Shown: piece after piece, positions 8,170 through 33,209 of the stretch | Numbering within the stretch: position 1 is the stretch's first letter | How the letters are laid out: the number at the start of each line of letters is the position of its first letter | Virus record (IMG/VR): IMGVR_UViG_3300043409_001570 | Span: 1 to 33,851 of that record | Length of the DNA stretch: 33,851 nt | Source of the DNA: a virus | Reading direction: 5' to 3' (one strand) | The notes under the pieces: generated by a model | What the model was told of the DNA's origin: nothing | The model's database searches: none | The model's input: the letters and a program-made list of their open reading frames with translations, nothing else | Translations under genes and position numbers: made by a program

Positions 8170-8502
8170 TTATTGAATATGATTCTCAATAAGTGCATAA
8201 AAATTGTTATACATTGTTTTCTCAGCAGTTGTTAAGGCATCGTATCCACCTGCAAGTTTCCAATCATTTACTCTGATTGTTGCTACTGATAACGCATCTT
8301 CGTTTACCGATCCATCAATGTAATCAGTCATGTAAGCTGCAGCGACTCCATCAATAAACTTGTTGTAAATAGTTAAATCTTTTTTTACAAGATCTGTCAC
8401 TTCCATAAAGCTTGTGTTGTCATTTAAAAAATCACATTCAACAGATGTATCGAAGTCACCTGCTAAAGATTTTACTCGGTATGTTAATCTAATTAAGTTC
8501 AT
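8170..8502 (-). CDS. Hypothetical small protein downstream of the beta-helix gene
   Basis: The 110-residue protein is mainly helical, with an N-terminal strand pair (about 1-25) and helices through the rest, and is acidic. It starts 4 nt after the stop of the 512-residue beta-helix gene, so it is in the same operon, and is followed by a strong terminator. A fibre chaperone or minor virion protein would fit the position. I do not recognise its family. Confidence 0.7.
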   Translation of the reverse strand: MNLIRLTYRVKSLAGDFDTSVECDFLNDNTSFMEVTDLVKKDLTIYNKFIDGVAAAYMTDYIDGSVNEDALSVATIRVNDWKLAGGYDALTTAEKTMYNNFYALIENHIQ

Positions 8503-8506
8503 ATTT

Positions 8507-10045: not shown

Positions 10046-10071
10046 AATCTTTTTTTATATTGTGAAATTAA

Positions 10072-10122
10072 TTAAGTTTTAGCCTTCTTCAAAGTATTTA
10101 CTAAAATTCCATTTATTGGCAT
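10072..10122 (-). pseudogene. 16-codon remnant copy of the fibre gene start; possible upstream ORF
   Basis: An ATG ORF encodes MPINGILVNTLKKAKT and then stops at TAA. It matches the first residues of the downstream fibre, MPINGLSLNTLKKDRS, at most positions, including identical ATGCCAATAAATGGA at the DNA level. It lies 26 nt upstream of the fibre ATG and downstream of the promoter at 10161, so it would be the first start codon on the message. It is probably the stump of a former or duplicated fibre gene, and may now act as a leader peptide. Confidence 0.7.
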
Positions 10123-10160
10123 AATGTCTTCTTTATTATGATTTGAGGTTTTAGGAAAAA

Positions 10161-10193
10161 CAAATTTAATGTAAAATTAAGTGTGTCACAAAA
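10161..10193 (-). promoter_or_regulatory. Late promoter B
   Basis: Minus-strand TTTTG, a 20-nt spacer and perfect TAAATTTG. The upstream flank AGGAAAGTTTATAATTTTG is closely related to promoter A, and both leaders carry CTAAAACCTCA within 6 nt of the -7 box. It drives the remnant ORF and the 512-residue fibre gene. Confidence 0.75.
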
Positions 10194-10212
10194 TTATAAA
10201 CTTTCCTAAAAC

Positions 10213-10237
10213 AAAAAAGAGAGGCGGTTACCTCTCT
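10213..10237 (-). terminator. Rho-independent terminator
   Basis: On the minus strand AGAGAGGT, loop AACC and GCCTCTCT form a hairpin with one T-G wobble, followed by TTTTTTG. It ends the transcript of the 748-residue structural gene 22 nt after its stop. Sequence and spacing to the following promoter are the same as in the 8113-8137 unit. Confidence 0.85.
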
Positions 10238-10259
10238 TTCTTTTTATTAAGTTCACCTA

Positions 10260-12506
10260 TTAGATAGGGAAAGCTTGTACTGGAGAAACTCCTGCGTTAG
10301 CTGCCAAATTATTTAATAAGTCTTCGATTGCATTATGTCTACCAATCTCTACAAAGAAGTTGTAATCGATATCATCATTAATTCTTCCTGCGAATCCTTG
10401 TGTATGATTAAAGTTACTAACTTTCAATGTGTATTGAACATATTGAGCAGTGCTATCTGGTAAGTTTGTAGACTCACCTCTTAACAATTTACCTAAGTAA
10501 GATCTTGGAGATTCTCCTCTGAAGTAAGCGTTAGCTTCTTGCTCTTTTTTACGTAAATTACCTGCTAAGTGTGTTCTATGTTGTTGACGAGATAAGTATT
10601 TACCTTGGTACCCACCTTCAGGAATACTACCGATACCCTCACGAATTTCTTCAGGGAATCCTGCAGCAACTTGAATTTTTGTAGATGTTTCTAAGAAACC
10701 AACTTCTTCGTACAATGCCTCTTCAGCATCTAAAACGAATACTCTTGATTTAAATTTAATACCACATTTACAGTTTCCACTTGGAGAAACAGAAGCCTCA
10801 CTTGCTGATACAGTCCAGTCAATATTTTCATAAGACTCAGGAGCTGAAGTGATATAAGCATCTTTGTAGATAACATCACACTCTTCACCAACTAAGTTAG
10901 AGATAACTGAAGTAGTATATTTAGTTTGACAACCTGCTGTGTAAGTAACTGCTGCAGCTAATGTACCATCTAAATCAGTTGTATCATTTGCAATTGTAAT
11001 AGCTGGTAAAGCAACACCGATGTTTTCAAAAGTTAAAACCCCTAAAGCAGCTGTAACTTTAACACCTTCGTCAGCTAAAATAGTAGCTCCATGTGCAGTA
11101 ACAAAGTTAGCAGCAGTTTGAGTTAAACTAGTAGCAAAAGTTGCTAAGTAATCAGTACCACCAATATTAATGTTAGCTGTTCCAGAAGTACCTGTCAAAG
11201 TCAATGCTCTATATTGAGCTAAAGCAATAGTTAAATTAGAATACGCACCTTGTAACTCTACTAATCTATCATTTCCACATTCTCCATCAGCTAACCATAA
11301 GTCGTATGCTTCAGAAACTGCATTAACTGTATCACCTAAAGTCCAAGCTGTAGAAACAGGAGAAGCATTTGAATCACATAAGTCTGCAATTTTACCAACT
11401 AAGTCTACTGTAATTGTATTACTTGGAACTGCACCACCTAATAAAGTTGCAATCTGCGCATCAGAAATTTTAGCTGTAAATACTGCTGTATAGAATCCTA
11501 CACCTGCATCATTTCCAGATTTAATAACTGTACCTGCTGAGTAGTTTGCCATTGCTGTAATTAAAGCAGTTTTGTCAACACCATCATCTTCAATAGTGAA
11601 TGCGTAAACATAACCACCTGTTACTGCAGTGTATCCAGCAGGACAAGTATCACATCCTTTAATAAAAGAAGCAACTGTTGATGTAAAAGAAGCAGGGGCA
11701 CTAGCAGCTAATACTTGGTAAGTAGAGATAGATCCTTTACGTAAGATTCTTTTTACAGGGAAATTGTATTGAGCTGCAACTAAAGCTTTAGCAACATCAT
11801 CACCTGTATCACATAATTCTATTGTATAGAAATTGAAAGGGATTAAGTTAGCTGCAATATCATTTGCACATTCAAATACAGGTGTTACATCAATAAAGTC
11901 TGCAACTGTTTTTCCTCCTGTTACTTGTTTTCTACGGATTCTTTCTACTGCCTCAGTTACGATTACTTTACAATCAACTGCATCACAGTTATCACAAGTA
12001 TCACAAGTATTGAAAGGATCACATGAAGGGATCTCAATGTTAATACCTACGAACTCTTCAGCACCTTTTCCACCTCTGTACTCAATTGCACCTCCTGAAA
12101 GTTTCAATGCTAATCTAAAGTAAGAATCTCCTGTTTTCCATTTGAACTCAGAACCTGGTGTACCATCATATCCAATAACAACTTCATCAACGATGTGCTC
12201 TGTTGTTTTAGGAACTGAAACTGCTAATCCACGAATTGAATCTAAAGAAAAAGGAACTGTAGATTTGTCTTTATCAGAGTAAGAACGTCCTGGAGTTTTT
12301 CCATCGATACCTAATCTAATTGTAAAATCTTTTTTATCTTTTGCTTTTCCTGCGAAAGATGAAATAACCTTCAATCCATCAGCTGTAGCTTTAGTTTGAT
12401 CAACTGCTGCTAATTGCCCTTTTGCAAGGTGCAAAGATCCACCAGATGTCTTAACTGCTCCATTGATTAAGAAGAAGTCTCTGTTAAACGGTTTGTTTAA
12501 TCCCAT
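10260..12506 (-). CDS. Large structural protein with a cysteine cluster
   Basis: This 748-residue protein is placed between the adaptor candidate and the fibre genes, and a terminator follows it, so it is probably an abundant virion protein. The N-terminal 155 residues and the C-terminal 150 residues look like one interrupted core. Between them lie variable beta-rich insertions and a Cys cluster at residues 162, 168, 171, 174 and 179, with further Cys pairs later (for example GCDTC near 280 and NCKCG near 578). The Ala/Thr/Val-rich middle (about 410-525) resembles Ig-like virion decorations. A tail sheath, tail-tube or head-decoration role is possible. I do not recognise a specific family. 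Confidence 0.7.
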   Translation of the reverse strand: MGLNKPFNRDFFLINGAVKTSGGSLHLAKGQLAAVDQTKATADGLKVISSFAGKAKDKKDFTIRLGIDGKTPGRSYSDKDKSTVPFSLDSIRGLAVSVPKTTEHIVDEVVIGYDGTPGSEFKWKTGDSYFRLALKLSGGAIEYRGGKGAEEFVGINIEIPSCDPFNTCDTCDNCDAVDCKVIVTEAVERIRRKQVTGGKTVADFIDVTPVFECANDIAANLIPFNFYTIELCDTGDDVAKALVAAQYNFPVKRILRKGSISTYQVLAASAPASFTSTVASFIKGCDTCPAGYTAVTGGYVYAFTIEDDGVDKTALITAMANYSAGTVIKSGNDAGVGFYTAVFTAKISDAQIATLLGGAVPSNTITVDLVGKIADLCDSNASPVSTAWTLGDTVNAVSEAYDLWLADGECGNDRLVELQGAYSNLTIALAQYRALTLTGTSGTANINIGGTDYLATFATSLTQTAANFVTAHGATILADEGVKVTAALGVLTFENIGVALPAITIANDTTDLDGTLAAAVTYTAGCQTKYTTSVISNLVGEECDVIYKDAYITSAPESYENIDWTVSASEASVSPSGNCKCGIKFKSRVFVLDAEEALYEEVGFLETSTKIQVAAGFPEEIREGIGSIPEGGYQGKYLSRQQHRTHLAGNLRKKEQEANAYFRGESPRSYLGKLLRGESTNLPDSTAQYVQYTLKVSNFNHTQGFAGRINDDIDYNFFVEIGRHNAIEDLLNNLAANAGVSPVQAFPI

Positions 12507-12535
12507 TGTTAAAAATTTATTTATTTATTTATTGA

Positions 12536-13207
12536 TTATATTTCGGAGAAAAGTGCATTACTTTGAATTTCGTACCCTGTTGTATCCCCATTTGTTGCTG
12601 AAAATTGTTTTGCCATTGCAATAATGACCTTGTTCATGACTTTATCATCCAATTCAGGATCTATATCTACTGAAGGTGTATCATCAAGTTTTATGTAACC
12701 CTCTATATCTAGTTTCTTTGGATATCTGTAGTAACTTAAATCTACTTTATCAATTTTAAAATCTGATTTATAAACTGCTACTTTATTTTCAGTAGTTAAA
12801 TAAAAAGTCTCTCTATATTCAAAAGAAGGAGAATTACTAGAGTCTCCTAAAAGTTCCTCTATATTTTCGCTTTTTACTTCAAAAGGTTTTTTTAATTTTT
12901 GTAATTTACACTTTCCTTTTGAAGCATAAATATGAAGATTTGCAAAATCAAAATAATCTTTAGGAAGATGAAAGGTTGTAAAATTTGGCTTCTGTTCAGA
13001 TTCTGCCAATTCTTTCTCTAAGATAAGAAGAGGAGAGATGTAACGAATTACATCTTCATTCCTTTTCTCTAATATCCAAGATACATATCTTGTTAATGTT
13101 GTATTAAGAAGTGTAATAAATCTAGGTAAATCTACATTGACATTATTATTAGTCATGTTCCTATTCACTGTATCTAGAAATGATACGTATACTTCTTTAA
13201 TCTTCAT
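12536..13207 (-). CDS. Head-tail adaptor candidate
   Basis: The 223-residue protein has a helical N-terminal part (about 1-70), a middle part with the FHLPKDYFDF pattern (about 78-87), a strand section, then DLSYYRYPKKLDIEGY (about 157-172) and a C-terminal helical segment beginning DIDPELDDKVMNK. The LP-x-DY, Y-R-Y-P and D-x-E-L pattern is the layout of phage adaptor or tail-tubular-A type connector proteins that dock below the portal. It starts 11 nt inside the upstream gene. Position after the capsid genes fits this, but the assignment rests on pattern and context only. Confidence 0.55.
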   Translation of the reverse strand: MKIKEVYVSFLDTVNRNMTNNNVNVDLPRFITLLNTTLTRYVSWILEKRNEDVIRYISPLLILEKELAESEQKPNFTTFHLPKDYFDFANLHIYASKGKCKLQKLKKPFEVKSENIEELLGDSSNSPSFEYRETFYLTTENKVAVYKSDFKIDKVDLSYYRYPKKLDIEGYIKLDDTPSVDIDPELDDKVMNKVIIAMAKQFSATNGDTTGYEIQSNALFSEI

Positions 13208-14285: not shown

Positions 14286-15980
14286 TTAACCTCTTCCTTT
14301 TTCTTGTAACTCAATAGTTACGTATCTTGTAGTATCTAATACTAAAGCAGAAGATTGAGAAGTTGCCCAGAATGTTCTACCCATTTGTTTGATAGAAGAA
14401 GCAACATTTTCAAATTGATCTTTATTAGCTGTACGTCCTTGCTCGTATCCGTATGTTACGTGAGGTTGACCTTCAGGTTTAACATAGTAGATATTAGCTT
14501 GTTGTGAACCACCTTCAACCAATTTAGCATTTTGTACTTTACTAGTTACATTAGAGTATTCTGGACTAGTAACATCCCAAATAACTAAAGAATTAGATGT
14601 GTGTGCAAAACCTTCTGAATAGAATCCTGAAGAGAATCTATCTGTACTTGGCATATAATCTAAAGAATCATCGTGCTCAACTGTAACTTTTCCAACTCCT
14701 GGGAATTGTACTTCTGTAATTGCTACTGCAGCTAAAGATAAGTTATTTAATGCTCCTGAGAATACTTTTGATGGTAATTGTCCGTCTGTACCGATTAAAC
14801 CTGCTGGTAAACCATTCAATTGGCTAATAGCGTGTTCACGGAATAATTGTAACATATTTTGGTAAGCTAACCAACCTGCTTTAAATTTAACAGAACGTTG
14901 TCCTACTGGAATGTCAGAGTTTTGGTAGATGTAAGAAACTGCTTCATAAATATGATCTAAAGTGATACCACCTTGTCTTGCATATTTAATCAATTTACCT
15001 CTACGGATTTGGTGCCATACACCTTCATTTACACGCTTAACTCCATTAGCAGTATTAACTGTAGCAGCTTTAGCGAATAAAAGCTCGTTTGCCTCCATTT
15101 GAGATAATTCCATCAATGCTAAGTATTCTAATGTAGAACCAATCATCATTGGGTTTAAAGTACCGTTAGCATTTTTCTTAGCTACGAACATACCGTTTTT
15201 ACCACCCATTGCTTCTAATTGAGCATTGATTTTATCAGATACACCATTAGCGAATCCTGTAAGTCCTGGAGATTTCATTCTAGCAGCTTTACCAGTAACG
15301 AAAGTCTCAATACCTCTTGGATCTGATAATAAGAACTCATTAGTAATTGTTCCAGCAGGATCTTTAATTAAAGATAAAGTTGAGAATGCAGTGTCAAACT
15401 CAGCAAGTTTGTTAGTCAATTTAATCCACTCTCTACCAGCTCTTAAATATTCTTTAGGGAAATATTTAGATTTATCATTAGTTTGCATTGTAACGTAGTG
15501 CTTGAAGTTTTCTCCAACTTGCTCTACATCATGTTCTGCAGAAACCATAACTTGTTCTCCATAAACAGGATCGTAAGTTAAGATATCACCTTTTGTAAAC
15601 TCTTGGTTTAATACTAATACAAAAATACCATTATCAATACCTGGGAAATCGTACTCAGCTGAAGTATCTTCTGCAGTGTAACATTTAACCTCTGAACGGT
15701 CAACTGGTAAATCATAAGTGATTGATTGTCCTTCTGCTACCTCTAAAACTGCTGCTTGAGAGAATAAATCTTTCAAGAATGGCATAGATTTTTTGTGAGA
15801 TGTTGCAAATAAGTTAATCAAACCTAAATGTTTTTTGTGAGAATCTTTTTCATCCATTAAGTATGTAGAAACCTTTGCAGAGTCCATCCAACCTAAAGTC
15901 TTTAATTCTTTCACGTTTGTAAATCCAACAACGTAATCACCGTTGATAGACTCATGTAAATCGAATCTGTTTTGAGACAT
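14286..15980 (-). CDS. Major capsid protein candidate
   Basis: The 564-residue protein follows portal and scaffold candidates in the usual head-gene order and is followed by a hairpin and a new promoter, as expected for a highly expressed capsid gene. The N-terminal part (about 1-75) has a helical stretch reminiscent of capsid N-arms. The central region (about 150-400) has long amphipathic helices and Gly-rich loops, and the C-terminal region is beta-rich with TYGYEQGRTANKDQFENV near 515-532. Size suits the large capsid proteins of Bacteroidota podoviruses. I see no motif unique to the HK97 fold, so this is a context-based call. Confidence 0.65.
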   Translation of the reverse strand: MSQNRFDLHESINGDYVVGFTNVKELKTLGWMDSAKVSTYLMDEKDSHKKHLGLINLFATSHKKSMPFLKDLFSQAAVLEVAEGQSITYDLPVDRSEVKCYTAEDTSAEYDFPGIDNGIFVLVLNQEFTKGDILTYDPVYGEQVMVSAEHDVEQVGENFKHYVTMQTNDKSKYFPKEYLRAGREWIKLTNKLAEFDTAFSTLSLIKDPAGTITNEFLLSDPRGIETFVTGKAARMKSPGLTGFANGVSDKINAQLEAMGGKNGMFVAKKNANGTLNPMMIGSTLEYLALMELSQMEANELLFAKAATVNTANGVKRVNEGVWHQIRRGKLIKYARQGGITLDHIYEAVSYIYQNSDIPVGQRSVKFKAGWLAYQNMLQLFREHAISQLNGLPAGLIGTDGQLPSKVFSGALNNLSLAAVAITEVQFPGVGKVTVEHDDSLDYMPSTDRFSSGFYSEGFAHTSNSLVIWDVTSPEYSNVTSKVQNAKLVEGGSQQANIYYVKPEGQPHVTYGYEQGRTANKDQFENVASSIKQMGRTFWATSQSSALVLDTTRYVTIELQEKGRG

Positions 15981-17260: not shown

Positions 17261-20008
17261 CTAATTTTTATTAATTGCTGCTATATACTCACCACTTTGG
17301 CGAGTTTTAGATTTCTCTTCTAATGCTCTAGCTTTTAATTCTAAGTCTTTAAGTTTCAACTCTCTAGCATCATTCATTTGCTGTTCTCTTAACTTAAAAT
17401 TATTAGCATCACTTTCCATTCTATGATTTAATTCTAAGTTTTTTATAGATTGATTAGCTTGTTCACTGATATATTCCATACTATTTGGATCTGTTTTCAT
17501 ATCAGCAGCTCTACCCATTGCTTGTATCTTTTCTTGCTCTAATCTAGATTCTCTATCTTTTTGTTTAGACATTTCTTGTCTTTCCCACTCTTTTTGATTA
17601 TTTTGATCAATCATTTGTTGCTGTTGTGCAGCTTGTTGTGATTGTGAATCTTGTGCTTGTTGTTGTTCTTTTTGTCTTGCTTTTCTTTCCATATTAGCAA
17701 TTTCTACAACTTCAGACCAAGAATCTGAGCCTATTAATCTTGCTAATTCTAATGTATCTGATCCTGTTGTATTATTAGAAATAAGTAAGTTCTTAAATGT
17801 TTCAAGATTTTTTCTCTTCTTACTATCTGAAGTAACAATCATTCCAAGTCTTCGTAAAGGAAACTCAGGATCTGTCATTTTTAAAAATTGAATTGATCCA
17901 TCAGACTTTGTATAGTAAAGAGATAAATCTTTTTTATTAGACTGACAATATTGTGCTACAGATAAATGTAGCTCTAAAGCTCCTTTATGGAAATTTGAGA
18001 ACTCCTCATGTACTCCTGATATTTGAGCTACATTTGATTCATTACTTAATCTAACTCCCTCAGCAGTTTCATACTTTGTCGGTTGATTTAATATTGGATT
18101 TATTCCAATCAGTTCATAAGCTTTCTTTTGAAAGAAATCTGCTAATTGAACTCTACTTGCAATCTCTTGTGCATGTGAGATATTAATTGCTTGTATTGGA
18201 TTGGCATTATTCATTGTCTTCTGAGAATCGAGCGAGAAATTAACCGGCATAAGTCCTACAGATTTTGCTGTATTTCTCATAGCCATTAATGCACTTTCTG
18301 CATCTCCCCATCCTTCATACTCAGAAGGAATTAAATCAGTACTCATTAATAGTACCATACCCAACTCCTTTTCAATTAATGCACCAATCTGATTCATACA
18401 AAGATTATACTTTGCTTGGAATGGTAAAAACTTACCAACAGTAGATGCACCAACTTTACCTGCAACAGGCAATAACACATCATATTCCGAATCTCCTTTA
18501 ATTTGATGCTCCATTGGAGTTACATCAATATATATTGGCTCAGTTAAATTACCACTTTGTATTTTTACTCCATAGTATGTAACCGGTTTATATTGCCATT
18601 TCAATGTACCTGGCTCAAAACTTGTTATAATATCGTGAATACTTTGTTTAAAAGTCTGTTTAATATTATTCTCTTTTAAGAAATCTTTTAGGATATCTTC
18701 AGTAACTTCTTCCGTTACAACTCTTCCATACTCATTTTCATATGTAAGATATCCCCATAAGTCATATGCCTTAAAGTATACTTCTGTAACTTGACACAAA
18801 TCTCTTCTGTGTATAAAGTCATCTCTTAGTAATCTAGCTAATGAATTATGTATACCAACATTTCCATCTGCCATTCTAGGTAAATATCTTTCTTTTACAG
18901 AAGATGATCCATCTTTATTAAAAACAGTTTCAATACCCATTGGTGTATCTAACTCATCTTGTAAGTTCAACATGAAGTTATAATCATGATACCCTTTAAA
19001 AGGTACTGTCTCTAATTGAAGGAAATTTGAATTAATTGCTTGTTCTACAGTCCCTGAAACAACTCCTGCTGATACAAAATTGTCCCAAGTTGTATTTCCA
19101 CCTAAAAGCTCTTTTTGTTTTTCTGCTGAAATTTTATGTCCATACTCTGAAATACACTCACTTGGTGTTTTCGGTACAACTCTTCCAACATATTCTCCTT
19201 TTTGAATATCCTCTAATTCAATCTCTTTAGAGAAGAATGTGACTTTTGGACTCCAGTTATTAGGTTGGTATTTATCGTGGTATATTTTATATTCCCTAAA
19301 ACATCTTCCTGATGTTAAGTAATCTTTTAAAGATTGTTTATTTAACTTTAATAAATTAAATCTTTCTTCATCTTGCTCTAATGTAGCTTCACCCCAAACA
19401 ACTCCATTTGTTTTAAATCCTTTATTCTTAGAGTCTTCGTTTGCTTTTGTTGTAAACTCATTTCTAACCTCTTCTAATTGACTAAGATATTGTTGTTGTT
19501 CTTCTTCAGAAGAAAATTGCTTACCCTCTGAAGTAAATCCGTTTTCTGCTAAGTGTGTCTCTACATAATTATCAACTACTTCTTTAAGAAGTTTTTTGAT
19601 TTGATCGTCTTTATATCTTATGAAATCATTCTTTGCAACTTCTCCTGTATCTTGTACATGGAACTTATCTTGCAAATCAACATACTTATCAACAATAGTG
19701 TTTACTACAATACTCGTAATATCATAATGTTTTAAAAATGTTGGGATCCCTACACCATCTAATAAATTTTCTAATCCTTTTAAATGTGGAACTACTTCAG
19801 AAAGTTCTTGGTAAGACATCTTACCTTCAACCATTCTATAGTTATCAAAAAAACTTAAGTTCTCATGGATTTGCTTCAAACCAATATGCTCAAAAGAGTC
19901 CATTACAGCTTTCTTCCATTTATCCGTATCCTTTACCTTTTTAGGTACAGTCATTGGAGGAAGCAAATCTGTTCTACTAAGTGAATCTAAAAAAGACGTA
20001 TTCATCAT
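17261..20008 (-). CDS. Portal protein candidate
   Basis: The 915-residue protein follows the terminase gene and precedes the scaffold candidate, so it is in the portal position. The N-terminal 650 residues form a mixed helical/strand region with patterns such as TFLKHYDITSIVVNTIVDKY (about 90-109) and YYGVKIQSGN...YIDVTPMEHQ (about 485-510). Residues about 760-900 are a long Gln/Glu/Lys-rich coiled coil, consistent with a long barrel or crown. At this length it resembles the very large portals of crAss-like and related Bacteroidota phages rather than the 400-600-residue ones of siphoviruses. The role is translocation of DNA by a dodecameric ring at the capsid vertex. Call rests on order, size and architecture. 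Confidence 0.72.
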   Translation of the reverse strand: MMNTSFLDSLSRTDLLPPMTVPKKVKDTDKWKKAVMDSFEHIGLKQIHENLSFFDNYRMVEGKMSYQELSEVVPHLKGLENLLDGVGIPTFLKHYDITSIVVNTIVDKYVDLQDKFHVQDTGEVAKNDFIRYKDDQIKKLLKEVVDNYVETHLAENGFTSEGKQFSSEEEQQQYLSQLEEVRNEFTTKANEDSKNKGFKTNGVVWGEATLEQDEERFNLLKLNKQSLKDYLTSGRCFREYKIYHDKYQPNNWSPKVTFFSKEIELEDIQKGEYVGRVVPKTPSECISEYGHKISAEKQKELLGGNTTWDNFVSAGVVSGTVEQAINSNFLQLETVPFKGYHDYNFMLNLQDELDTPMGIETVFNKDGSSSVKERYLPRMADGNVGIHNSLARLLRDDFIHRRDLCQVTEVYFKAYDLWGYLTYENEYGRVVTEEVTEDILKDFLKENNIKQTFKQSIHDIITSFEPGTLKWQYKPVTYYGVKIQSGNLTEPIYIDVTPMEHQIKGDSEYDVLLPVAGKVGASTVGKFLPFQAKYNLCMNQIGALIEKELGMVLLMSTDLIPSEYEGWGDAESALMAMRNTAKSVGLMPVNFSLDSQKTMNNANPIQAINISHAQEIASRVQLADFFQKKAYELIGINPILNQPTKYETAEGVRLSNESNVAQISGVHEEFSNFHKGALELHLSVAQYCQSNKKDLSLYYTKSDGSIQFLKMTDPEFPLRRLGMIVTSDSKKRKNLETFKNLLISNNTTGSDTLELARLIGSDSWSEVVEIANMERKARQKEQQQAQDSQSQQAAQQQQMIDQNNQKEWERQEMSKQKDRESRLEQEKIQAMGRAADMKTDPNSMEYISEQANQSIKNLELNHRMESDANNFKLREQQMNDARELKLKDLELKARALEEKSKTRQSGEYIAAINKN

Positions 20009-20063: not shown

Positions 20064-23000
20064 TTAAAAGGCACTAGGTCTCCTTGATCCAAAGACAGAT
20101 AACCCTACCTTTTTAGGTCCTGAAATATTATTATATTCAGTGGTTTTTCTCTTTTCTGCCGGCCTTACATTATTTTTATCCAACTCTCTTGCATAAGCTA
20201 ATGAATGCATAAATGCAGTGATCCTATCGAAGTTACCCCCTTTTCTATAAGAAAGCATTTCTTTTAGAAGAGCTATATCTAGGATGTACTCTACTCCGTA
20301 TTTAATTATCTCGTTACCATCTTCATCAATCCCAATTACGTGCTCCTCTTTGCAATAGTCTATAAGCATATTAAACATATAAGCCTTATTACCTCCTGTA
20401 GGATAAATACCGAATTTTGAGTTTAACTTTGCATTTCCATTTTGTGATGAGTTAGAAAAAGATATTGATGGTGCTAACAATTGTTCAGATTTATATTTAG
20501 TATCTAAAAACTGTTTAAAACTAACATCGACAGCCTCCATCATGCAGATGGCATGAAATGCTTCAATCAACGTTTCTCCTGTTTTATGAAAGTCAGAATG
20601 TCTAAAAGGTCTTGCTACATAAGATGCTGCAATTGTTTCACAAGGAGAGTTCATCTCCAAATTTCTTCTTTTCAATACATAAAAAGCACCAAGCGAATCT
20701 GTATCAGATTGATCTAATTTATAATCATCGAGACCTGATACATATGTGTACTTATGAGGTTGAGTCTCTGGAAGTTCTCCAAATAATAAAATTGGTGCAT
20801 CTGCTTCTCCTCCACCATGGGAAACTTCTGCTAATTTCTTTGAAGAAAATTCTTGTTTATATTCTCCGTTGTGTTTATAAATATTAACACTTTTACCTAA
20901 AATACCTTCATCTTCAAGCTTCCTTATATGCTTATCGATAACAGCTGTTGGGAAAGGGTTTGAGGAAGCTGTTATAAATACATCTGCAATTTCTAATGGA
21001 AAGTACATTCTATTTCTTTCTCTATCCTCCTCCTTTTTAAATGCATTGTTTTTATCTTTTATAAAAGTAGATGCTTTCTCCCAATCTGTTGCATTTACTT
21101 TTATCTTCTCTAAATCACCGTTTTCAATATCTAGGTATTCTGCTAAATTTATAGCTTTTTTAGGTACAGGTAAACGATAAGACATCTGTCCTGGAACAAA
21201 TGTACAGAAACTCTCTTTCTTACTTCTCTCCCAAGTTATAAACTCAGGATCAACTTTCCTATCTAATGTATCCCAATTCATAGGAAGCATATCGTAAGCT
21301 TCAGGATTTGATAATACATCCTTTGCATCTTTACTAAGATCCTGATTACCAGAAGTACCACTTAAAATAGGTACAAGCTTCATACCATATTGAGTCTTAA
21401 ATGAAGGGAGTGCAGATTGTAGTACTTTCTTAAATCCCCATTTTCCGCAGTTATGTGTAACTATATAATTCTCAGTAAGAAAAAGATTACTTTGGTTATC
21501 TACCTTAATACAATAGACTTGATTTTTTCCAACATACTTAATATCTGAAATAGTTATTCTTGTCTTATAAGCTAGTTTCTTTTTAGAGTTGTTATTTCCC
21601 TCTACTAGGTTATAGTTAGCTAATTTTCTATTCAATCTAAAAATAGGAAGGTCTGTATATAATCTAAATCTATAAGCATCTTTGCATACTACTTTCTTTC
21701 CATTCTTAGTATAAGATGTTTTCTTTATAGAATGTTTTAAACTAATACCTAACCCTCTACACAGTATTTCAAATGATTTTGCTAATTCAGGAATAGATGT
21801 TGAGAACTCAATATGCCCATTCTTTGACACACTCCCATCAGTATCCATCAATCCTTGTAGTAAGCTTAATCTATCCTCTATAGAAGAGTATAGATAATCG
21901 TTTGGTATGTTCTTCAAGATATCTAATTTGTATTCTCTTAGTCTATCAATTAAAGGATTCAAGTTATAACCTCTTTGTCCAATATTTGTAACAATCCTAC
22001 TTATATAAAAATCAGGATTAGGTGTGGAATTTGGATGAATTCTACTACACTTCATTCCTAGAGATTCAGCATAAGATTCACAATAGTCTAATATCTCTTT
22101 GTCAATACTACAAATAGAACTTGTGCCTATAAAACCATCTCCTAAATAAAGTCCTAACCAATAAGGATCTATCTTTAAATCCTTTTTACTATAGGATATT
22201 GGTTCATTAATAGGTAAAGAGTAAATAAGAGATTTTGATACTTTATTATATCTTTTATCTATTTTTTCATAGTAGTACTTTTTTCGTATTTCCTCTGTAG
22301 TTAATTCCTGCCAACAAGATTTAGAAGTATTGTATACTTTCCAAATATGATTATCAGAAGCTATTACTGATCTACCATCTGATAAGGTAATACTATATGT
22401 ATCAACTACTCCTGGATTTATCTTGTCTAATATCTTTGTTAGTTTTCCATCATCTCCATAGATTTGGTCTCCTACTTTTACATCTTTAATTGGTTTTTCA
22501 AATCCATCATAATAGATCAATGAATCTTCATGTAAAGCTTCATCTAGAATAAATCCTACAGGAGACAAACCTGCACCTTTCTCAGAAGAGTTATCTGTAC
22601 CACCAGATCCATTAGTTATGGATATGTGAGAATGTGGTATCCTAAAACCGTCTTTTTCTTTAATACCTAATTCAACTTTATTATCCCATTCTTGAATCAA
22701 TTGAGGTATATACATTGCAGGACTTACATTATTAAACCCAACCTTTAAAAGAGTTGATATAGCTTTTAAATCTCCATCATTGCCTCCCATAACAGAAGTA
22801 GTACCATTAGCTTTAGTTGAATTTAACCAAGTAATCAAAGATGCTAACATACTAGATTTTGTAAAACCACGACATCCAAAAAGCATTAATCCTAAACCTT
22901 TAGCTTCAGCCTCTTCATAATTCTCCATAACAAATAACATATTGTCATCTAGTGGAGGATTCATTATTAGCTCTTTACCATCTTCTGTTGGAATAGGTGT

Positions 23001-23201
23001 CTTGAAGAAGTTTAAATGCCAATATAACCAAGGGTGGATACGATACCCACCGATAGTTATACCTTCTGTAATTTTTCTCTTTTCCTCTAAATAAAAATCT
23101 ATTACATCTATTTGCTGATCAAAAAAGTTTTTTCTAGGATTCCACTTTGGAGGATTCTTAATATTTATGAAAAGTTCATTAGATGTTAGAAATTGAGACA
23201 T
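20064..23201 (-). CDS. terL: Terminase large subunit interrupted by an intein
   Basis: The 1045-residue precursor is the DNA-packaging motor. The ATPase domain has a P-loop variant GCRGFTKS (109-116, with Thr where Gly usually precedes Lys) and Walker B FILDE (217-221). An intein of 363 residues (222-584) sits immediately after the catalytic Glu221, and the host protein resumes at CGKWGF, giving a spliced product of about 682 residues. The nuclease domain has acidic clusters typical of the RNase H-like fold: GLDDYKLDQ (823-831) and FDRITAFMHS (991-1000). The mature protein docks on the portal, translocates DNA with ATP and cuts the concatemer. The small gene directly upstream is a candidate partner small subunit. 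The precursor is expected to be inactive until the intein splices out. Confidence 0.93.
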   Translation of the reverse strand: MSQFLTSNELFINIKNPPKWNPRKNFFDQQIDVIDFYLEEKRKITEGITIGGYRIHPWLYWHLNFFKTPIPTEDGKELIMNPPLDDNMLFVMENYEEAEAKGLGLMLFGCRGFTKSSMLASLITWLNSTKANGTTSVMGGNDGDLKAISTLLKVGFNNVSPAMYIPQLIQEWDNKVELGIKEKDGFRIPHSHISITNGSGGTDNSSEKGAGLSPVGFILDEALHEDSLIYYDGFEKPIKDVKVGDQIYGDDGKLTKILDKINPGVVDTYSITLSDGRSVIASDNHIWKVYNTSKSCWQELTTEEIRKKYYYEKIDKRYNKVSKSLIYSLPINEPISYSKKDLKIDPYWLGLYLGDGFIGTSSICSIDKEILDYCESYAESLGMKCSRIHPNSTPNPDFYISRIVTNIGQRGYNLNPLIDRLREYKLDILKNIPNDYLYSSIEDRLSLLQGLMDTDGSVSKNGHIEFSTSIPELAKSFEILCRGLGISLKHSIKKTSYTKNGKKVVCKDAYRFRLYTDLPIFRLNRKLANYNLVEGNNNSKKKLAYKTRITISDIKYVGKNQVYCIKVDNQSNLFLTENYIVTHNCGKWGFKKVLQSALPSFKTQYGMKLVPILSGTSGNQDLSKDAKDVLSNPEAYDMLPMNWDTLDRKVDPEFITWERSKKESFCTFVPGQMSYRLPVPKKAINLAEYLDIENGDLEKIKVNATDWEKASTFIKDKNNAFKKEEDRERNRMYFPLEIADVFITASSNPFPTAVIDKHIRKLEDEGILGKSVNIYKHNGEYKQEFSSKKLAEVSHGGGEADAPILLFGELPETQPHKYTYVSGLDDYKLDQSDTDSLGAFYVLKRRNLEMNSPCETIAASYVARPFRHSDFHKTGETLIEAFHAICMMEAVDVSFKQFLDTKYKSEQLLAPSISFSNSSQNGNAKLNSKFGIYPTGGNKAYMFNMLIDYCKEEHVIGIDEDGNEIIKYGVEYILDIALLKEMLSYRKGGNFDRITAFMHSLAYARELDKNNVRPAEKRKTTEYNNISGPKKVGLSVFGSRRPSAF
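21450..22538 (-). other. Intein with LAGLIDADG endonuclease domain, class 3-like, inside terL
   Basis: The intein spans residues 222-584 of the terminase precursor (363 residues). It begins with Ala222, not the usual Cys or Ser, in the block A pattern ALHEDSLI, and ends VTHN with Cys585 as the first downstream extein residue. Block B carries His285 with Trp287 (SDNHIW), block F carries Cys564 (VYCIKV), and block G carries Thr582 (VTHN). Trp at B:12, Cys at F:4 and Thr at G:5 make up the signature of class 3 inteins, in which the block F Cys attacks the upstream junction because residue 1 cannot. Two LAGLIDADG motifs, YWLGLYLGDG (347-356) and LLQGLMDTDG (447-456), show a probable homing endonuclease. 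Confidence 0.88.
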
Positions 23202-25774: not shown

Positions 25775-27160
25775 ATGAAAAAAAGAGTTCCAAGTAAATA
25801 TGTGTACAAATTGTACACGCTTCCTGAAAAGCTAAATAATGATATTTTAGCTTTAAATCTATGCTCTACTCAATATGATAGAGTAATTAGATTTATGGGC
25901 GTATTAAAAAGAAAATCTTATCAGCAAAATAGAGACTACTGTCTTCCTGTCACTTTACCTAGAGATTATTTGACAACATTTTTAACAACAGGTTACCATA
26001 AAATAACAAACATGTTGGTTGAAAAAGGAATAATTGAAAGAGATGACTACTGGAACCAAAAAAAATCAATCTGCAAAAAATACAATATTTCCCCAAAATA
26101 CTTTGAAAGAGATTTAACTATATTAGATAATATTAATATAGAAAATAGAGAAGAAATAAAAGGAATAAAAACAGTGAATCTATCACTTAAATGCGTGTTC
26201 GTAAAAGATGATGCTGAAACTGAGCGAGTTATAGACTCTACAAAGAAGCAATTAAATAGGTTAAATATTGACGGAAAAAGACTACGAGAAGTGTCTGAAG
26301 AGTTGGTTGAAAATATTTCTGAAAATGACTTCATTTTAAACTCAAACATTACAGAACCTCAATTTGAAGTTAAGATGATGGTCAATTCAGAATTTAAGTC
26401 AAGATGGGTAAACTTGAAAGATGCTCAAGATCTTGCTAAATTGAATGGTAAAGACTTAATCCAAGATAAAAAATGCTTCTATATCATGCGTATAGCGGAT
26501 TTTATCACTAGAAAAAAGGATATGGTTAGAATCTATCATAACGAGTCAATTGGTCGTTTAGAGAAGAAATATTGGACTGTTTCAAGAAATAGTACCAACA
26601 ATAGATTGGATACTAATTTAACAAACCTGCCTACAGGATTGGTAAAAGTTATCATGGAAGATAATGATCTGGTACAAGTTGACTTAAGTAATTCACAATT
26701 TGCTATTCTAGCTAGCCTTCTTCCTGAAAATCTTGTACACCCTAGTACAGTTGAGTTTAAGGAGAGTGCATCTAGCGGTAAGTTCTATGAATCTGTACAA
26801 AAAAAGTTGGATTTAGATACTAGAAATGTAGCTAAACAAACTACATTTGAGTTGCTATTCTCCTCTCATAAAAATAAGTCAAACAACTTGACAAAAATGA
26901 GAGAAGCATATCCGGAACTTATGAACTACATTGATGATTATAAGATAGAAAATGGTCATAAAAACTTCTCAATTTCCTTACAAAAAGAGGAATCGAGAAT
27001 ATTCATTGATGGAATCTTAAACAGATTATCATTTTTGAAAATACCTAGTTTATCAAAACATGATTCAATTATATGTAAACAGTCTGATTTTGAGGAAGTA
27101 TTGGATGTTATAAATTCTATTTTTTCTTTAAATAATTTCAAAGGAAACCTTGTTTATTAA
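25775..27160 (+). CDS. Minimal family A polymerase-like protein
   Basis: The 461-residue protein contains the three palm/fingers motifs of family A polymerases. Motif A is VDLSNSQFAILASL (302-315) with the metal-binding Asp303. Motif B follows the O-helix pattern with Arg350, Lys354, Phe358 and Phe362 (RNVAKQTTFELLFS), aligned with the R-x3-K-x3-F-x3-Y series of Pol I. Then comes AYPELMNYID, corresponding to the YP-x-x-x-x-Y-x segment, a Gln403 helix, and motif C SKHDSII (427-433) with Asp430. HDS rather than HDE at motif C is the form usual in single-subunit RNA polymerases. The first 250 residues show neither exonuclease signature; residues about 55-120 may be winged-helix-like. Catalysis is plausible, but a replication initiator or primer synthesis role is also possible. 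Confidence 0.7.
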   Translation: MKKRVPSKYVYKLYTLPEKLNNDILALNLCSTQYDRVIRFMGVLKRKSYQQNRDYCLPVTLPRDYLTTFLTTGYHKITNMLVEKGIIERDDYWNQKKSICKKYNISPKYFERDLTILDNINIENREEIKGIKTVNLSLKCVFVKDDAETERVIDSTKKQLNRLNIDGKRLREVSEELVENISENDFILNSNITEPQFEVKMMVNSEFKSRWVNLKDAQDLAKLNGKDLIQDKKCFYIMRIADFITRKKDMVRIYHNESIGRLEKKYWTVSRNSTNNRLDTNLTNLPTGLVKVIMEDNDLVQVDLSNSQFAILASLLPENLVHPSTVEFKESASSGKFYESVQKKLDLDTRNVAKQTTFELLFSSHKNKSNNLTKMREAYPELMNYIDDYKIENGHKNFSISLQKEESRIFIDGILNRLSFLKIPSLSKHDSIICKQSDFEEVLDVINSIFSLNNFKGNLVY

Positions 27161-27398: not shown

Positions 27399-28466
27399 AT
27401 GGCAAAGAAAGAAGGAAAAGACTTAAGTGTTAATGAAATACTTGATGATTTAAATAAAGTTTTAAAGACTAACGTTCAATTTGCTAATTCAGGAAAAGGA
27501 TTAGATATTGAAAGAGTTAGAACAGGTAGTATTACATTTGATTCTGCAACTGGAGGAGGTTTTCCAAAGGGTAGACATACAATACTTTACGGTCCAGAAT
27601 CATCTGGAAAGACTACATCTGCTCTTATGGCAGTTGCTAATTTTCAAAAATCAGATGATAAGAGACTTGCTTTGTTTATTGATGGAGAGTTTGCATTTGA
27701 CAAGAAATATGCCAAAGCATTAGGAATTGATTTGTCAAAACTATTAGTTGTTCAACCAGATCATACAAACCAAGCCCAAGATATTCTATTAGAATTATTA
27801 AATAAAGATTTGATAGGTATTCAAGTTTTTGACAGTATTGCTGCTGTTCAGCCTATTTCAGTTTTAGAAAATGATTCAGATGCTTCAAATATGGGTAAAC
27901 ATGCCTTAGCAATTGGTAATATCTTCAAGACTTGTAATGGACTTATTAGTAAGAATAAGGTTTGTTCAATATTCATCAATCAAATACGAGATAAGATTGG
28001 TGGTTATGGTGGTGGTATAAGTATGCCTGGAGGACATGCACCAAAGTTTTATGCTTCATTAATGGTCCAAGTTAATAGAGGAACTAGAACAGATAATCCT
28101 GATGGTACACATACAAATAGAGGATCAATATTTGTCACTAAAAATAAAACTGCACCTCCATACAAAAAAGGTGAATATGATATGGAACATGGAACCGGTA
28201 TATCAGTATCTCAGGAAGTTTTAGATTATGGGATTTTAACAGGTGTCCTATATAAAGCTGGAAATACTTTCTATTATGATGAAACATTTGAGAATAAGTC
28301 TGATAACAAAGAGTCACATGTAAAAGTTGGATCTTCAAAAGCATTGGCTAAAGAATTCTTAAATCAGAATACAGAGTTTAGAGATCATTTATATGAAATT
28401 ATTGTAAATCATGTAATATCTCAATTCAATGATGAAGATATTGACTTAGAAGAACAAAGAGATTAA
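27399..28466 (+). CDS. RecA/UvsX-like recombinase
   Basis: The 355-residue protein has the RecA ATPase core: Walker A GPESSGKTT (65-73), catalytic Glu97 in FIDGEFAFD, Walker B IQVFDSIAAV (141-150, Asp145), then INQIRDKIG (193-201), and GGHAPKFYAS (211-220), which corresponds to the DNA-binding loop 2 start. It lacks the long C-terminal tail of bacterial RecA. The protein forms filaments on single-stranded DNA and promotes strand exchange, most likely for recombination-dependent replication and repair. A strong terminator follows it. It is near an SSB and PhoH-like ATPase in the same arm. Confidence 0.93.
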   Translation: MAKKEGKDLSVNEILDDLNKVLKTNVQFANSGKGLDIERVRTGSITFDSATGGGFPKGRHTILYGPESSGKTTSALMAVANFQKSDDKRLALFIDGEFAFDKKYAKALGIDLSKLLVVQPDHTNQAQDILLELLNKDLIGIQVFDSIAAVQPISVLENDSDASNMGKHALAIGNIFKTCNGLISKNKVCSIFINQIRDKIGGYGGGISMPGGHAPKFYASLMVQVNRGTRTDNPDGTHTNRGSIFVTKNKTAPPYKKGEYDMEHGTGISVSQEVLDYGILTGVLYKAGNTFYYDETFENKSDNKESHVKVGSSKALAKEFLNQNTEFRDHLYEIIVNHVISQFNDEDIDLEEQRD

Positions 28467-28507: not shown

Positions 28508-28933
28508 ATGGCAAAGAAAAAAGTAGTAAAAAAATCAAGAGTAGAAAAACCTTTTAATCACGGAACACAAAGTAAGGCTGCATTCTTCGGATCTATTAGG
28601 GCAGCATTAAGAAATTCTAGTAGATGGTGGAAACCAATTGCAGCATGTAAGGCTAATGCAAAAAGACCTTATAAAGGACCGAGTAAACTTCAGAAATATG
28701 AATACCAATGCAATATCTGTAAAGAGTACTTTTCTGAAAAAGAAATAGCTATCGATCATATTGTAGAAGCCGGAAGTTTAAAAGATTATAACGACTTACC
28801 AGGATTTGTAGAAAGACTTTTTTGTGAGGTGGATGGGTTTCAATGCCTTTGTAATAAGAGAAAAGACGGAAAAGTTAGCTGTCATACCACTAAGACTCAG
28901 GACTATATGAAAAAACAAAAAGAAAATAAATAA
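28508..28933 (+). CDS. HNH-family protein
   Basis: The 141-residue protein has a basic N-terminus (MAKKKVVKKSRVE) and a zinc-finger HNH core: CNIC (68-71), DHI (83-85), then CLC (113-115) and SCHTTKT (124-130). The first Cys pair and the later Cys/His pair would hold zinc, and the DH with the C-terminal His are the catalytic triad seen in the family. It starts 11 nt after the recombinase terminator, without a clear promoter. Role options include a freestanding homing nuclease, a packaging-related nuclease or a repair enzyme. The family is clear; the role is not. Confidence 0.8.
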   Translation: MAKKKVVKKSRVEKPFNHGTQSKAAFFGSIRAALRNSSRWWKPIAACKANAKRPYKGPSKLQKYEYQCNICKEYFSEKEIAIDHIVEAGSLKDYNDLPGFVERLFCEVDGFQCLCNKRKDGKVSCHTTKTQDYMKKQKENK

Positions 28934-29749: not shown

Positions 29750-30412
29750 ATGTCAACAAAGCCAAATAAAGAGAAGAGGATTCTGAAAACAGAACCTAAG
29801 TTAAAGATTGAATTAAGTGATGAACAGAAAGAAGTTGTTAAGTTATTTCATGAATTTGATGTAATCTTTATCAATGGTGACTTTGGTACAGGGAAAACAG
29901 CAACAGCAGTTCATATTGCTTTATCAGCATTTAGAAAGAAAATGTTTAATAAGATCTGGATTACAAGACCAATGCTTAAGAATCAGCTTGCAGCTCTTCC
30001 AGGTACATTAGAAGAAAAACTGCATCCATACATATATCCAATTCTTCAAAACATGGAAATGTGTCAAGGAAAAGAGTTAACAGAGAAAATGAAAAAAGAT
30101 GGTAATGTTGAAATTATACCTTTTGATGTTGCTAAGGGCCTCACATTTTCGGACTCCGTTGTAATTGTAGATGAATGGCAAGATATAGATTATCAAGATT
30201 TCAGAACTATTTTAACAAGATTAGGTAAAGATAGTAAAATGATTTTCTGTGGATCAAAGGAACAGATTGATAGAACAATGTTAGATAAAACTTGTTACCA
30301 TCGTGTATCAAAATTAGAAGGTAGTGGGATAGTTGGATGGGCAGATTTAAAAGCTAATCATAGAAACGAGATTTTAATGAAAATTATAAATTATCTAGAA
30401 AAAAATGACTAA
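29750..30412 (+). CDS. PhoH-like ATPase
   Basis: The 220-residue protein contains the P-loop GDFGTGKT (43-50), the ITRPM strand (71-75), the KGLTFSDS loop (129-136) and the Walker B VVIVDEWQD (137-145), followed by the sensor strand KMIFCGSKEQID (163-174). These match the PhoH family in order and spacing. PhoH-like proteins are common in phages and are predicted RNA or DNA helicase-like ATPases, but the biochemical role is unsettled. The gene overlaps the next small gene by 8 nt. Confidence 0.9.
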   Translation: MSTKPNKEKRILKTEPKLKIELSDEQKEVVKLFHEFDVIFINGDFGTGKTATAVHIALSAFRKKMFNKIWITRPMLKNQLAALPGTLEEKLHPYIYPILQNMEMCQGKELTEKMKKDGNVEIIPFDVAKGLTFSDSVVIVDEWQDIDYQDFRTILTRLGKDSKMIFCGSKEQIDRTMLDKTCYHRVSKLEGSGIVGWADLKANHRNEILMKIINYLEKND

Positions 30413-30672: not shown

Positions 30673-31377
30673 ATGAACTACAACAATTTCAGCATTAGTG
30701 CAAGTAAGGGAAAACTTTTCTTAAAAGAAAAAACTCCAACAGAAGGTTATGAGGAAATAACTTATGGAAGTGAAAACAAAAAAACTTACCACAAGTATTT
30801 TTCAAGTATCAAAGGGACTCCAAAGTACTTTGACACAAAAGAAGTGAAATTTGATGGTAAGACATTACGTTTCTTAGAGTTGACATTAATTGATGGTCAA
30901 GAGTCAAACAAAGTATCTGTACCTTTAAAAAACACAAAAGGTGGATATACTGATGAGACAAGAGCAATCATCTCTTCATTAAACTCTTTAAAATTAGGTG
31001 AAGAAGTTACACTTTCAGTGAAAACGACAACATCTATTGGTAAGAACGGAAAAGAGTACAAAAACTTGAATGTGTATATTAATTACACAAACATCCTTAA
31101 TGACGAAGGTAAAGGACAAAGTACAGGATTCATTCCTTATACAGAAATTCCTGGACCAGAAGCAAAAGTTATTGCAGGAGATCAAGTTTGGGATTGGACA
31201 GCACAAACAGAGTTCTTCTACCATAAGTTAGAAGAGATTAAAGCTAAGTTTTCTGCATCTGCTCCTACAGCTTCAGCACCATCTCAACCAATAGTATCGG
31301 CTACTCCTGCTCCTACAGTGGAGACTTTGCAAAAAATAGAGGCAGTAACTATTGAGGATGATGATTTACCTTTCTAG
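30673..31377 (+). CDS. ssb: Single-stranded-DNA-binding protein
   Basis: The 234-residue protein has a strand-rich N-terminal core (about 1-150) with the spacing of an OB-fold, a low-complexity linker rich in Ser, Ala, Pro and Thr (about 193-222), and an acidic C-terminal tip IEDDDLPF (227-234). Bacterial SSB proteins end in an equivalent acidic DDD-x-PF tip that docks replication and repair partners, so the same role is likely here. Core homology to OB-folds is weak by eye, so the call rests on architecture, tip and context near RecA-like and PhoH-like genes. It has its own promoter and terminator, as expected for a highly expressed protein. Confidence 0.75.
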   Translation: MNYNNFSISASKGKLFLKEKTPTEGYEEITYGSENKKTYHKYFSSIKGTPKYFDTKEVKFDGKTLRFLELTLIDGQESNKVSVPLKNTKGGYTDETRAIISSLNSLKLGEEVTLSVKTTTSIGKNGKEYKNLNVYINYTNILNDEGKGQSTGFIPYTEIPGPEAKVIAGDQVWDWTAQTEFFYHKLEEIKAKFSASAPTASAPSQPIVSATPAPTVETLQKIEAVTIEDDDLPF

Positions 31378-31788: not shown

Positions 31789-31963
31789 GGAGATGAGAGC
31801 CATCTATGAGGATTTATATTCTTCAGGTGATTTACTAGATATGTTTCCTACATTAACAGGAAACTGGAAAGAGGATAAAAAAGATTTTAAAGAATTGTAT
31901 AATCAAGTTAATAATTCTTTTGGTACAGATTTTAATATATATTTTGGAGATGAAGAATATTAA
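31778..31963 (+). CDS. Hypothetical small protein
   Basis: The frame opens at a GTG at 31769, but the ATG at 31778 (MGAKEMRAIYEDLYSS) is preferred, giving 61 residues. It is acidic and helical. It overlaps both neighbours by 11 and 14 nt, so translation of the three genes is probably coupled. No family recognised. Confidence 0.55.
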   Translation: MGAKEMRAIYEDLYSSGDLLDMFPTLTGNWKEDKKDFKELYNQVNNSFGTDFNIYFGDEEY

Positions 31964-33209
31964 CATTAAAGAGTTTTTAGAGAGTAAAAGAGAAGAGTTG
32001 TTTAATATCTACGAAGATATGTCAAACATCGCTAAATCAGCTAGGAAGTTGTGTGAGCAATATGGAGTGGAGTATACAGAATCTTTCAGAGCATGTGCAT
32101 CTAAGATTATAAACAGTGATAGAATGTTTGAAAATACATCTGACACTGAAACTAATCAATACAAAGATGATTCAAATCCTGTATCAGTTTTATCTGCCTT
32201 AAGAACAGATGGATCTATAATGAATATCACAGAATATTGTGAAACATATAATTTACCTTTTGACCAGGTTAAGAGTTATAAATTAGTTACACACACTGGT
32301 AAAGGTGCTTATTATAATATTGCTAGCAATAATGTTTCTAATTCTTTTGATCTGGATTTCTTTAAAGATAGTTTATTAGAAGGTATTGAAAAAATATCAA
32401 CTAGACCAAGGACTTTAATTAGAAAAGTAAATAATCAATCTTCAGAAGGGCACTTATTAGTAGTGGATCCAGCTGACGTACATATCCAGAAGTTAGCCAC
32501 TGTATTTGAGACAGGTGATGAATATAATAGCCAAATAGCTTGTCAAAGAGTTAGAGAAGGTATTGAAGGTTTATTGGAAAAATCAAAAGGTTTTAATATA
32601 GATAGAATTCTTTTTGTAGGAGGAAATGATATTCTTCATACAGATACACCAAAAAAGACTACAACCTCCGGTACATTCCAGGATGTAGATTCAAATTGGT
32701 ATACAGCTTTTGCAGTGGCAAAAAGTTTATACATTGAAGTTATTGATAGACTTTTAGAAGTAGCAGATGTGCATTTTGTTCACAATCCTTCAAATCATGA
32801 TTGGATGATATCGACACTTTTAGCAGATGTAATTCAAACTTATTATAAAGATTGTAAAAATATTTCATTTGATTGCGATCTTAGACATAGAAAGTATTTC
32901 CAATATGGAAAGAACTTGATAGGAACTACACATGGAGATGGAGCTAAAAACGATATTCTTCCAATATTAATGGCTACAGAAGAACCTAAAATGTGGAGTG
33001 ACTCAAAGCATAGATATGTTTACACACACCATGTTCACCACAAAGTTTCAAAAGATTACATCGGAGTAACTGTAGAAGCACTAAGAAGTCCTTCAGGAAC
33101 AGATGGTTGGCATAATAGAAATGGCTACTGTGGTGTACCTAAAGCTGTAGAAGGTTTTATACATCACCCTGAATTTGGGCAAGTTGCACGTCTTACACAT
33201 AATTTTTAA
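31950..33209 (+). CDS. Helix-turn-helix plus calcineurin-like phosphoesterase
   Basis: The frame extends to a TTG at 31920, but the ATG at 31950 is the better start, giving 419 residues. The first 60 residues (NIAKSARKLCEQYGVEYTESFRACASKIIN) look like a helix-turn-helix. From about 165 the metallophosphoesterase motifs appear in order: DVH (176-178), GGND..H (224-230), SNHD (281-284), HGDG (328-331) and HHVH (360-363). These coordinate the two metal ions in the family, which includes DNA exonucleases such as SbcD/Mre11. Fusion with a DNA-binding head in a replication operon suggests a DNA-directed nuclease or phosphatase. Substrate is not visible from sequence. Confidence 0.8.
   Translation: MKNINIKEFLESKREELFNIYEDMSNIAKSARKLCEQYGVEYTESFRACASKIINSDRMFENTSDTETNQYKDDSNPVSVLSALRTDGSIMNITEYCETYNLPFDQVKSYKLVTHTGKGAYYNIASNNVSNSFDLDFFKDSLLEGIEKISTRPRTLIRKVNNQSSEGHLLVVDPADVHIQKLATVFETGDEYNSQIACQRVREGIEGLLEKSKGFNIDRILFVGGNDILHTDTPKKTTTSGTFQDVDSNWYTAFAVAKSLYIEVIDRLLEVADVHFVHNPSNHDWMISTLLADVIQTYYKDCKNISFDCDLRHRKYFQYGKNLIGTTHGDGAKNDILPILMATEEPKMWSDSKHRYVYTHHVHHKVSKDYIGVTVEALRSPSGTDGWHNRNGYCGVPKAVEGFIHHPEFGQVARLTHNF

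Follow-up and report, generated by a model that had tools for sequence, protein, structure and literature searches.

To the two broad primase families that are generally recognised, SCCmec has recently added a proven exception, a primase of the PolA type (PMC7581432). In that element the polymerase CcPol, in complex with its partner MP, primes DNA de novo in a template-dependent manner (PMC7581432, PMC10061031), whereas CcPol without MP only extends primers (PMC7581432). Minimal polymerases of the PolA type have been described twice. The TV-Pols, reported in 2008, were predicted to be minimal prim-pols of mobile elements, Bacteroidetes members included; they are 400-600 aa long, have two palm Asp residues, a hairpin Arg preceded by an antiparallel thumb of two helices, and RxxxK fingers with a conserved Asp, lack a nuclease, and are tied to integrases and resolvases (PMC2579912). 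The divPolA2 proteins, reported in 2024 from Rheinheimera barbaviruses and Vibrio ICP1-like phages, are encoded in variable gene neighbourhoods by phages that also encode a regular DNA polymerase, and a role as RNA polymerase has been suggested for them (PMC11348598).

Here we analysed a virus record of 33,851 nt (IMGVR_UViG_3300043409_001570; hereafter the window), itself a fragment, in which an ORF at 25775..27160 (+) encodes a minimal PolA-superfamily polymerase-like protein of 461 aa, as judged by ORF analysis, alignment, AF2, Foldseek and hhalign. With moderate confidence, we propose that it is a prim-pol or initiator for replication of mobile elements, that is, an origin-binding minimal polymerase of the TV-Pol type.

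Active-site motifs and predicted fold

In an alignment of 29 diverse relatives (17-57% identical to the window protein), R277, T280, T283, D303, Q308, G335, Y338, K354, E406, H429 and D430 were invariant (29/29), and N281, N306, S307, R350, P380, L402, Q403 and S431 were conserved in at least 90%. These residues define a template-arginine hairpin (residues 272-285, NSTNNRLDTNLTNL; 26588..26629, +) of the form [DN]xx[GN]R, which carries R277 and aligns with TGRLSS of PolA; motif A (residues 299-313; 26669..26713, +), in which D303 lies within VDLSNSQFAILA and Q308 occupies the steric-gate position of Pol I; a GxxY in the fingers (26777..26788, +) formed by G335 and Y338; motif B, or the O-helix (residues 350-362; 26822..26860, +), with the pattern R-x3-K-x3-F-x3-F (R350/K354/F358/F362); an LQxxES helix (residues 402-407; 26978..26995, +), of which LQxxE is common to TV-Pol; and motif C (residues 427-432; 27053..27070, +), with HDS at 429-431 and D430 as its Asp. 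Within motif B, R350 is kept in 28 of the 29 relatives and K354 in all of them, and F or Y occupies position 358 in 22/29 and position 362 in 28/29. No invariant Asp lies between motifs A and B in this alignment, where GxxY is found instead, and the fingers Asp named for TV-Pol corresponds to no invariant column in the family. A first-pass annotation, made from the window's letters and ORFs, had placed the 461-aa ORF, motifs A, B and C and their key residues correctly, and with the conservation seen among the 29 relatives the pattern is far from chance.

The conserved active site indicates a polymerase, and we consider it very probable that the window protein is an active nucleic-acid polymerase of the PolA superfamily. 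The opposite reading, in which the fold is catalytically idle or repurposed and has no role beyond regulation through DNA binding or initiation of replication, would be compatible with a winged helix predicted at the N-terminus (see below), and PolA-derived RRM proteins without catalytic residues do occur beside SSBs (PMC10061031). However, essentially every relative retains both catalytic Asp residues together with the arginine hairpin and R-x3-K, which would not be expected without catalysis, making an idle fold highly improbable.

The AF2 model of the window protein (pLDDT 83, pTM 0.78) predicts the palm and fingers of a family-A (Pol I/T7-type) enzyme, as the motifs had led the first-pass annotation to propose. 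A strand at 299-305 ends in motif A, HD429-430 lies in the turn of a hairpin (425-428/431-435) in the arrangement of the PolA palm, and helices 147-162 and 167-179 precede the palm. When the model was compared with the PDB by Foldseek, M. smegmatis Pol I, KlenTaq, apicoplast Pol (apPol) and Pol theta came first (best match E 6e-5, probability 1.00) and yeast mitochondrial RNA polymerase came later, below the Pol I-type enzymes. TM-scores were modest (0.3-0.48) because only part of the protein aligns. Foldseek matches also include the divPolA2 of Barba31A. The family thus has the motif order and predicted palm/fingers fold of the Pol I polymerase domain, but differs from it in having Gln in place of the steric-gate Glu and mostly Phe at the O-helix position of Tyr766. 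No exonuclease domain was found by Pfam, in agreement with the earlier reading of the sequence.

Glu710 of Pol I is a ribose gate, and Tyr639 of T7 RNAP discriminates the 2'-OH. Their counterparts in the family are Gln308 and mostly Phe362, so the choice of sugar is not readable from sequence. The first-pass annotation had described "hybrid DNA/RNA polymerase motifs" and raised the idea of an early transcription enzyme. A single-subunit RNA polymerase, which would transcribe early genes or make RNA primers only, is suggested by the resemblance of the [DN]xx[GN]R hairpin and HDS to T7-like RNA polymerases, by the invariant Gln in place of the Pol I steric-gate Glu, by the mitochondrial RNA polymerase in the Foldseek list, and by the only match of the family HMM to PDB sequences, N4 RNAP II, which is non-significant (E 0.67). 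Yet Pol I-type enzymes rank higher in Foldseek, Pfam gave no RNA polymerase match, and a T7-type promoter-recognition domain was not seen. Furthermore, TV-Pol-like proteins have HDG and several divPolA2 have HDS, so HDS is no mark of an RNA polymerase, and the arginine hairpin is likewise common to both groups; the hybrid reading was therefore an over-interpretation, and transcription of early genes gained no positive support. We regard an RNA polymerase as quite unlikely.

The N-terminal region (residues 18-105; 25826..26089, +) was predicted to adopt a winged-helix fold by two AF2 models and Foldseek, with helices at 31-52, 63-70 and 74-83 and wing strands at 87-93 and 99-105. Residues 31-105 form a helix-strand-helix-helix-wing in both predictions, consistent with the winged helix suspected earlier. 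When the isolated domain was compared with the PDB by Foldseek, winged-helix proteins were the best matches, led by the DnaD N-domain and including the plasmid initiator 4pt7, all with non-significant E-values of at least 0.05; the winged helix is therefore supported as a fold, and likeness to an initiator is a hint.

Relationship to TV-Pol, divPolA2 and PolA

Sequence comparison with Pfam, PHROG and the PDB gave the window protein no usable match; single-sequence Pfam, PHROG and tblastn searches were nearly empty, Pfam DNA_pol_A recognised neither the window protein nor the family, and relatives were recovered by alignment-based search. Similarly, single divPolA1, divPolA2 or PolA sequences, or shallow alignments of them, gave low profile probabilities, and deeper alignments resolved the relationship. 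In the profile search against polymerase families that had been suggested with the first-pass annotation, which we ran in hhalign with 47 family members, the family matched divPolA2 over palm and fingers at 98.4% (E 5.4e-15), presumed TV-Pols at 80.8% (E 1.3e-5; collinear from winged helix to motif C) and canonical PolA at 68% (E 4.7e-5), with tyrosine recombinases (0.4%) and reversed profiles (0.0-0.1%; 0.0% for the TV-Pol comparison) as controls. The TV-Pol set consisted of Ma-LMM01 MAP_030 and a close copy, a protein of Calothrix plasmid6 and proteins of two Polaromonas plasmids, which we take to be TV-Pols from the published mention of Ma-LMM01, their motifs, and the adjacent recombinases or transposases. 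MAP_030, which is probably the TV-Pol mentioned for Ma-LMM01 in 2008, is a 506-aa ORF annotated as hypothetical that lies beside a transposase pair (20350-21867, -, in L185) and was located by position; the family profile gave no match in the record of this Microcystis phage, and a search of viral contigs yielded no further TV-Pol relatives.

In a tree of 65 proteins, divPolA2 (100/100), PolA (100/100) and TV-Pol (95/90) were separate, and the window family formed a single, weakly supported group (90/39) in which several members have long branches. Based on the profile and tree results, we describe the family as a minimal PolA-like clade beside TV-Pol and divPolA2; judged by its sequence, the window gene appears to be a member of this clade, which is one of Bacteroidota. 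The kind of protein has already been described (TV-Pol in 2008, PMC2579912; divPolA2 in 2024, PMC11348598), and some of the Bacteroidetes TV-Pols of 2008 may belong to the window clade. In the literature and sequence collections that we compared, the apparent novelties are the recognition of this clade, its connection with divPolA2, its occurrence in megaphages, its standing in compact prophages and elements as the sole recognisable replication gene, and its likely part in a phage group whose examined contigs contain no recognisable DNA polymerase.

Like the family, divPolA2 is small (~430 aa), consists of a minimal palm and fingers without an exonuclease and with an undescribed N-terminal domain, and has the hairpin Arg, the R-x3-K of motif B and the motif C Asp (within HDS in several members), but its motif A lacks NSQ and it forms its own tree group. 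The family shares with TV-Pol the size range, palm Asp residues, hairpin Arg, RxxxK fingers, lack of a nuclease and ties to recombinases set out above. The protein of Polaromonas pW9NP1 (GRLYT...LQNAPKELRK...YDLSNCHFAIIA) aligns with the window protein (NRLDT...NLTNLPTGLVK...VDLSNSQFAILA), with DLSNCHFAIIA versus DLSNSQFAILA in motif A and HDG versus HDS in motif C. In contrast to one TV-Pol subset, no D5-type helicase was found beside or fused to the family members examined, and the TV sequences are separate from the family on the tree, although the family branch is weak (90/39). CcPol-MP resembles the family in being a recombinase-associated PolA-superfamily polymerase of an integrating element, but CcPol is much closer to Pol I, retains part of the exonuclease domain, depends on MP as an OB-fold partner and acts together with a helicase, none of which was seen for the family. 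The only candidate OB-fold partner in the window is a weak SSB match several genes downstream, and none was identified in the small elements.

Recombinase linkage and compact elements

Alignment-based searches recovered 34 relatives in IMG/VR and 11 loci, all in Bacteroidota, in GTDB genomes; tblastn with the single query against phage and plasmid collections found only LR756501/503 and one Hymenobacter plasmid. In one class, that of a Flagellimonas genome, E <= 1e-6 was reached in 22 of 295 genomes, a few of which hold multiple copies, and six megaphage records of 595-735 kb encode a family member. A tyrosine or serine recombinase lies within 6 kb of the gene in 27 of 30 chromosomal neighbourhoods (among them three pairs >75% identical), whereas none of 20 control windows, each 13.4 kb long and taken from the genomes concerned, contains one (Fisher p 4e-11, an optimistic value because the controls were hand-placed and some detection seeds came from the same loci). 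The contrast between loci and controls is plain. An integrase, an unknown gene, an HTH_17-type protein and the polymerase recur in this order at four loci (L044, L046, L148 and L155). At L047 (7206-9050; Pfam ANT 1e-8) the family member carries a phage antirepressor KilAC domain as a fusion at its C-terminus, and at L040 the polymerase gene is immediately followed by one for a large Eco57I-type restriction-modification methylase (9615-12629), suggesting that some elements carry defence cargo.

A compact context is that of L046, a Bacteroides MAG, in which a ~6.4-kb element (3604-10167) lies between tRNA-Ala (10091-10167) and a 92-nt duplicate (3604-3695) that reaches into the 3' part of the tRNA gene. 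It contains an integrase, an unknown 337-aa gene, HTH_17, the polymerase and small genes, and no Walker A motif was found in ORFs >150 aa within 4 kb; by this measure, 16 of the 30 chromosomal neighbourhoods have no Walker A ORF. Two related loci with identical gene order, G005 and G006, appear to be complete prophages of 31 kb that run from a large serine recombinase to lysis genes. Neither has a match to PolA/B/C, DnaB, Toprim_2 or D5_N, and a Pfam scan of ten ORFs of G006, non-structural or packaging, identified the large serine recombinase, HTH, GIY-YIG and packaging proteins, with a sub-threshold Phage_F match and nothing of replication. In the 31-kb prophages and the 6.4-kb element, therefore, the family gene is the only recognisable replication gene, although further replication functions could be concealed among those genes of the small elements that lack family matches. 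The enzyme can also be one of several replication proteins: DnaB and PolB matches occur in the megaphage LR756501, and the Hymenobacter plasmid, which we had considered as a case of a sole Rep, encodes ParA and a replication initiator of its own.

The pairing of recombinase and polymerase in compact elements with no recognisable primase, helicase or initiator points to the start of replication, and these neighbourhoods favour the primase-polymerase or initiator idea raised by the first-pass annotation. They also count against an RNA polymerase, since the elements are tiny and hold almost nothing to transcribe. For the prim-pol/initiator that we prefer, in which we infer catalysis, priming, DNA binding, origin choice and any sugar preference, the winged helix would bring the protein to the origin of the element or phage, or to single-stranded DNA. 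The palm (D303 and D430, with two metal ions), the R277 hairpin and the fingers (R350/K354/F358/F362) would then join nucleotides on the template, starting de novo or from a short primer, and the product would pass to the host replisome (host DnaB/Pol III), a hand-over that we propose because the elements yielded no genes for a helicase or a replicative polymerase. CcPol-MP of SCCmec would be the precedent, by analogy, for a priming role (PMC7581432, PMC10061031). A stronger form of the proposal, which we put forward tentatively, is that a single polypeptide of ~400-500 aa combines origin recognition, priming and DNA synthesis and so constitutes the complete element-encoded initiation machinery, with the host replisome doing the rest, across a broad range of phages and ~6-kb integrating elements in Bacteroidota; it would be a PolA-type primase-initiator that needs neither helicase nor partner. 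If true, a third, PolA-type route of priming would be common beyond SCCmec, and a family of smaller PolA-like enzymes that is invisible to Pfam and PHROGs, spans prophages, 6-kb elements and the largest phages, and ties TV-Pol and divPolA2 into one class would offer compact, testable systems for the primer-free start of DNA by a family-A polymerase.

The polymerase module of the window

In the window, the polymerase ORF stands first in a module of plus-strand genes. The next large gene encodes a UvsX/RecA-like recombinase (27399..28466, +; Pfam RecA 4e-59, PHROG 97), and the module also encodes an HNH protein (28508-28933, +), a 150-aa protein with weak polynucleotide-kinase-type matches, a PhoH-like ATPase (29750..30412, +; Pfam PhoH 1e-40), a possible ssDNA-binding protein (30673..31377, +; weak PHROG SSB match, E 0.02), the homologue of which in L001 has the C-terminal end DDELPF, and a DNA repair exonuclease-like protein (31920..33209, +; PHROG 704, 1e-66).

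This setting bears on whether the enzyme is not a primase but a DNA polymerase that depends on primers, elongating 3' ends already present, such as R-loop RNA, UvsX recombination intermediates or recombinase nicks. UvsX and exonuclease genes adjoin it here, its fold is best matched by Pol I, and CcPol without MP only extends primers (PMC7581432). The 6-kb elements, with a recombinase, HTH and small genes, have no recognisable primer source, although host RNA could serve, and a winged helix argues for specific DNA binding. We therefore consider a purely primer-dependent enzyme a serious but rather unlikely alternative, and prefer the prim-pol/initiator.

Neither the window nor G001 (70.9 kb), G002 (83.5 kb), G003, G005 or G006 had a credible match to PF00136, PF07733, PF03796, PF13155 or PF08706, and the five sequences other than the window had none to PF00476 either; DnaB_C matches in the window, G001 and G002 were weak, corresponded to the RecA-like P-loop of the UvsX gene, and were rejected. 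No other DNA polymerase, DnaB or member of the primase families searched was found in the sister contigs; these, like the window, are fragments, and the DNA that is missing could encode a helicase or polymerase. The window group thus differs from divPolA2 phages in having no regular polymerase in the contigs examined, which are incomplete. A search 5' of the polymerase gene revealed no clear iterons in the window, with only one 10-nt repeat pair and AT-rich inverted repeats, and the same search in G006 found scattered 14-18-nt repeats.

Upstream of the polymerase gene are mostly minus-strand genes, structural ones among them, including the terminase large subunit (20064-23201, -), the portal (17261-20008, -) and a virion protein (14286-15980, -; PHROG 35737, 1e-95). 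The terminase contains a ~360-aa intein with Hint and LAGLIDADG domains (residues ~223-584) that is missing from the otherwise 96-98% identical terminase of L001. The virion protein has a weak, below-cut-off Pfam match to the Crassvirus major capsid (E 7e-4), and by this sequence likeness the phage may be distantly crAss-like. A patatin-like phospholipase (250-1173, -; Pfam 1.7e-24) adjoins a holin (1160-1726) and is possibly part of lysis.
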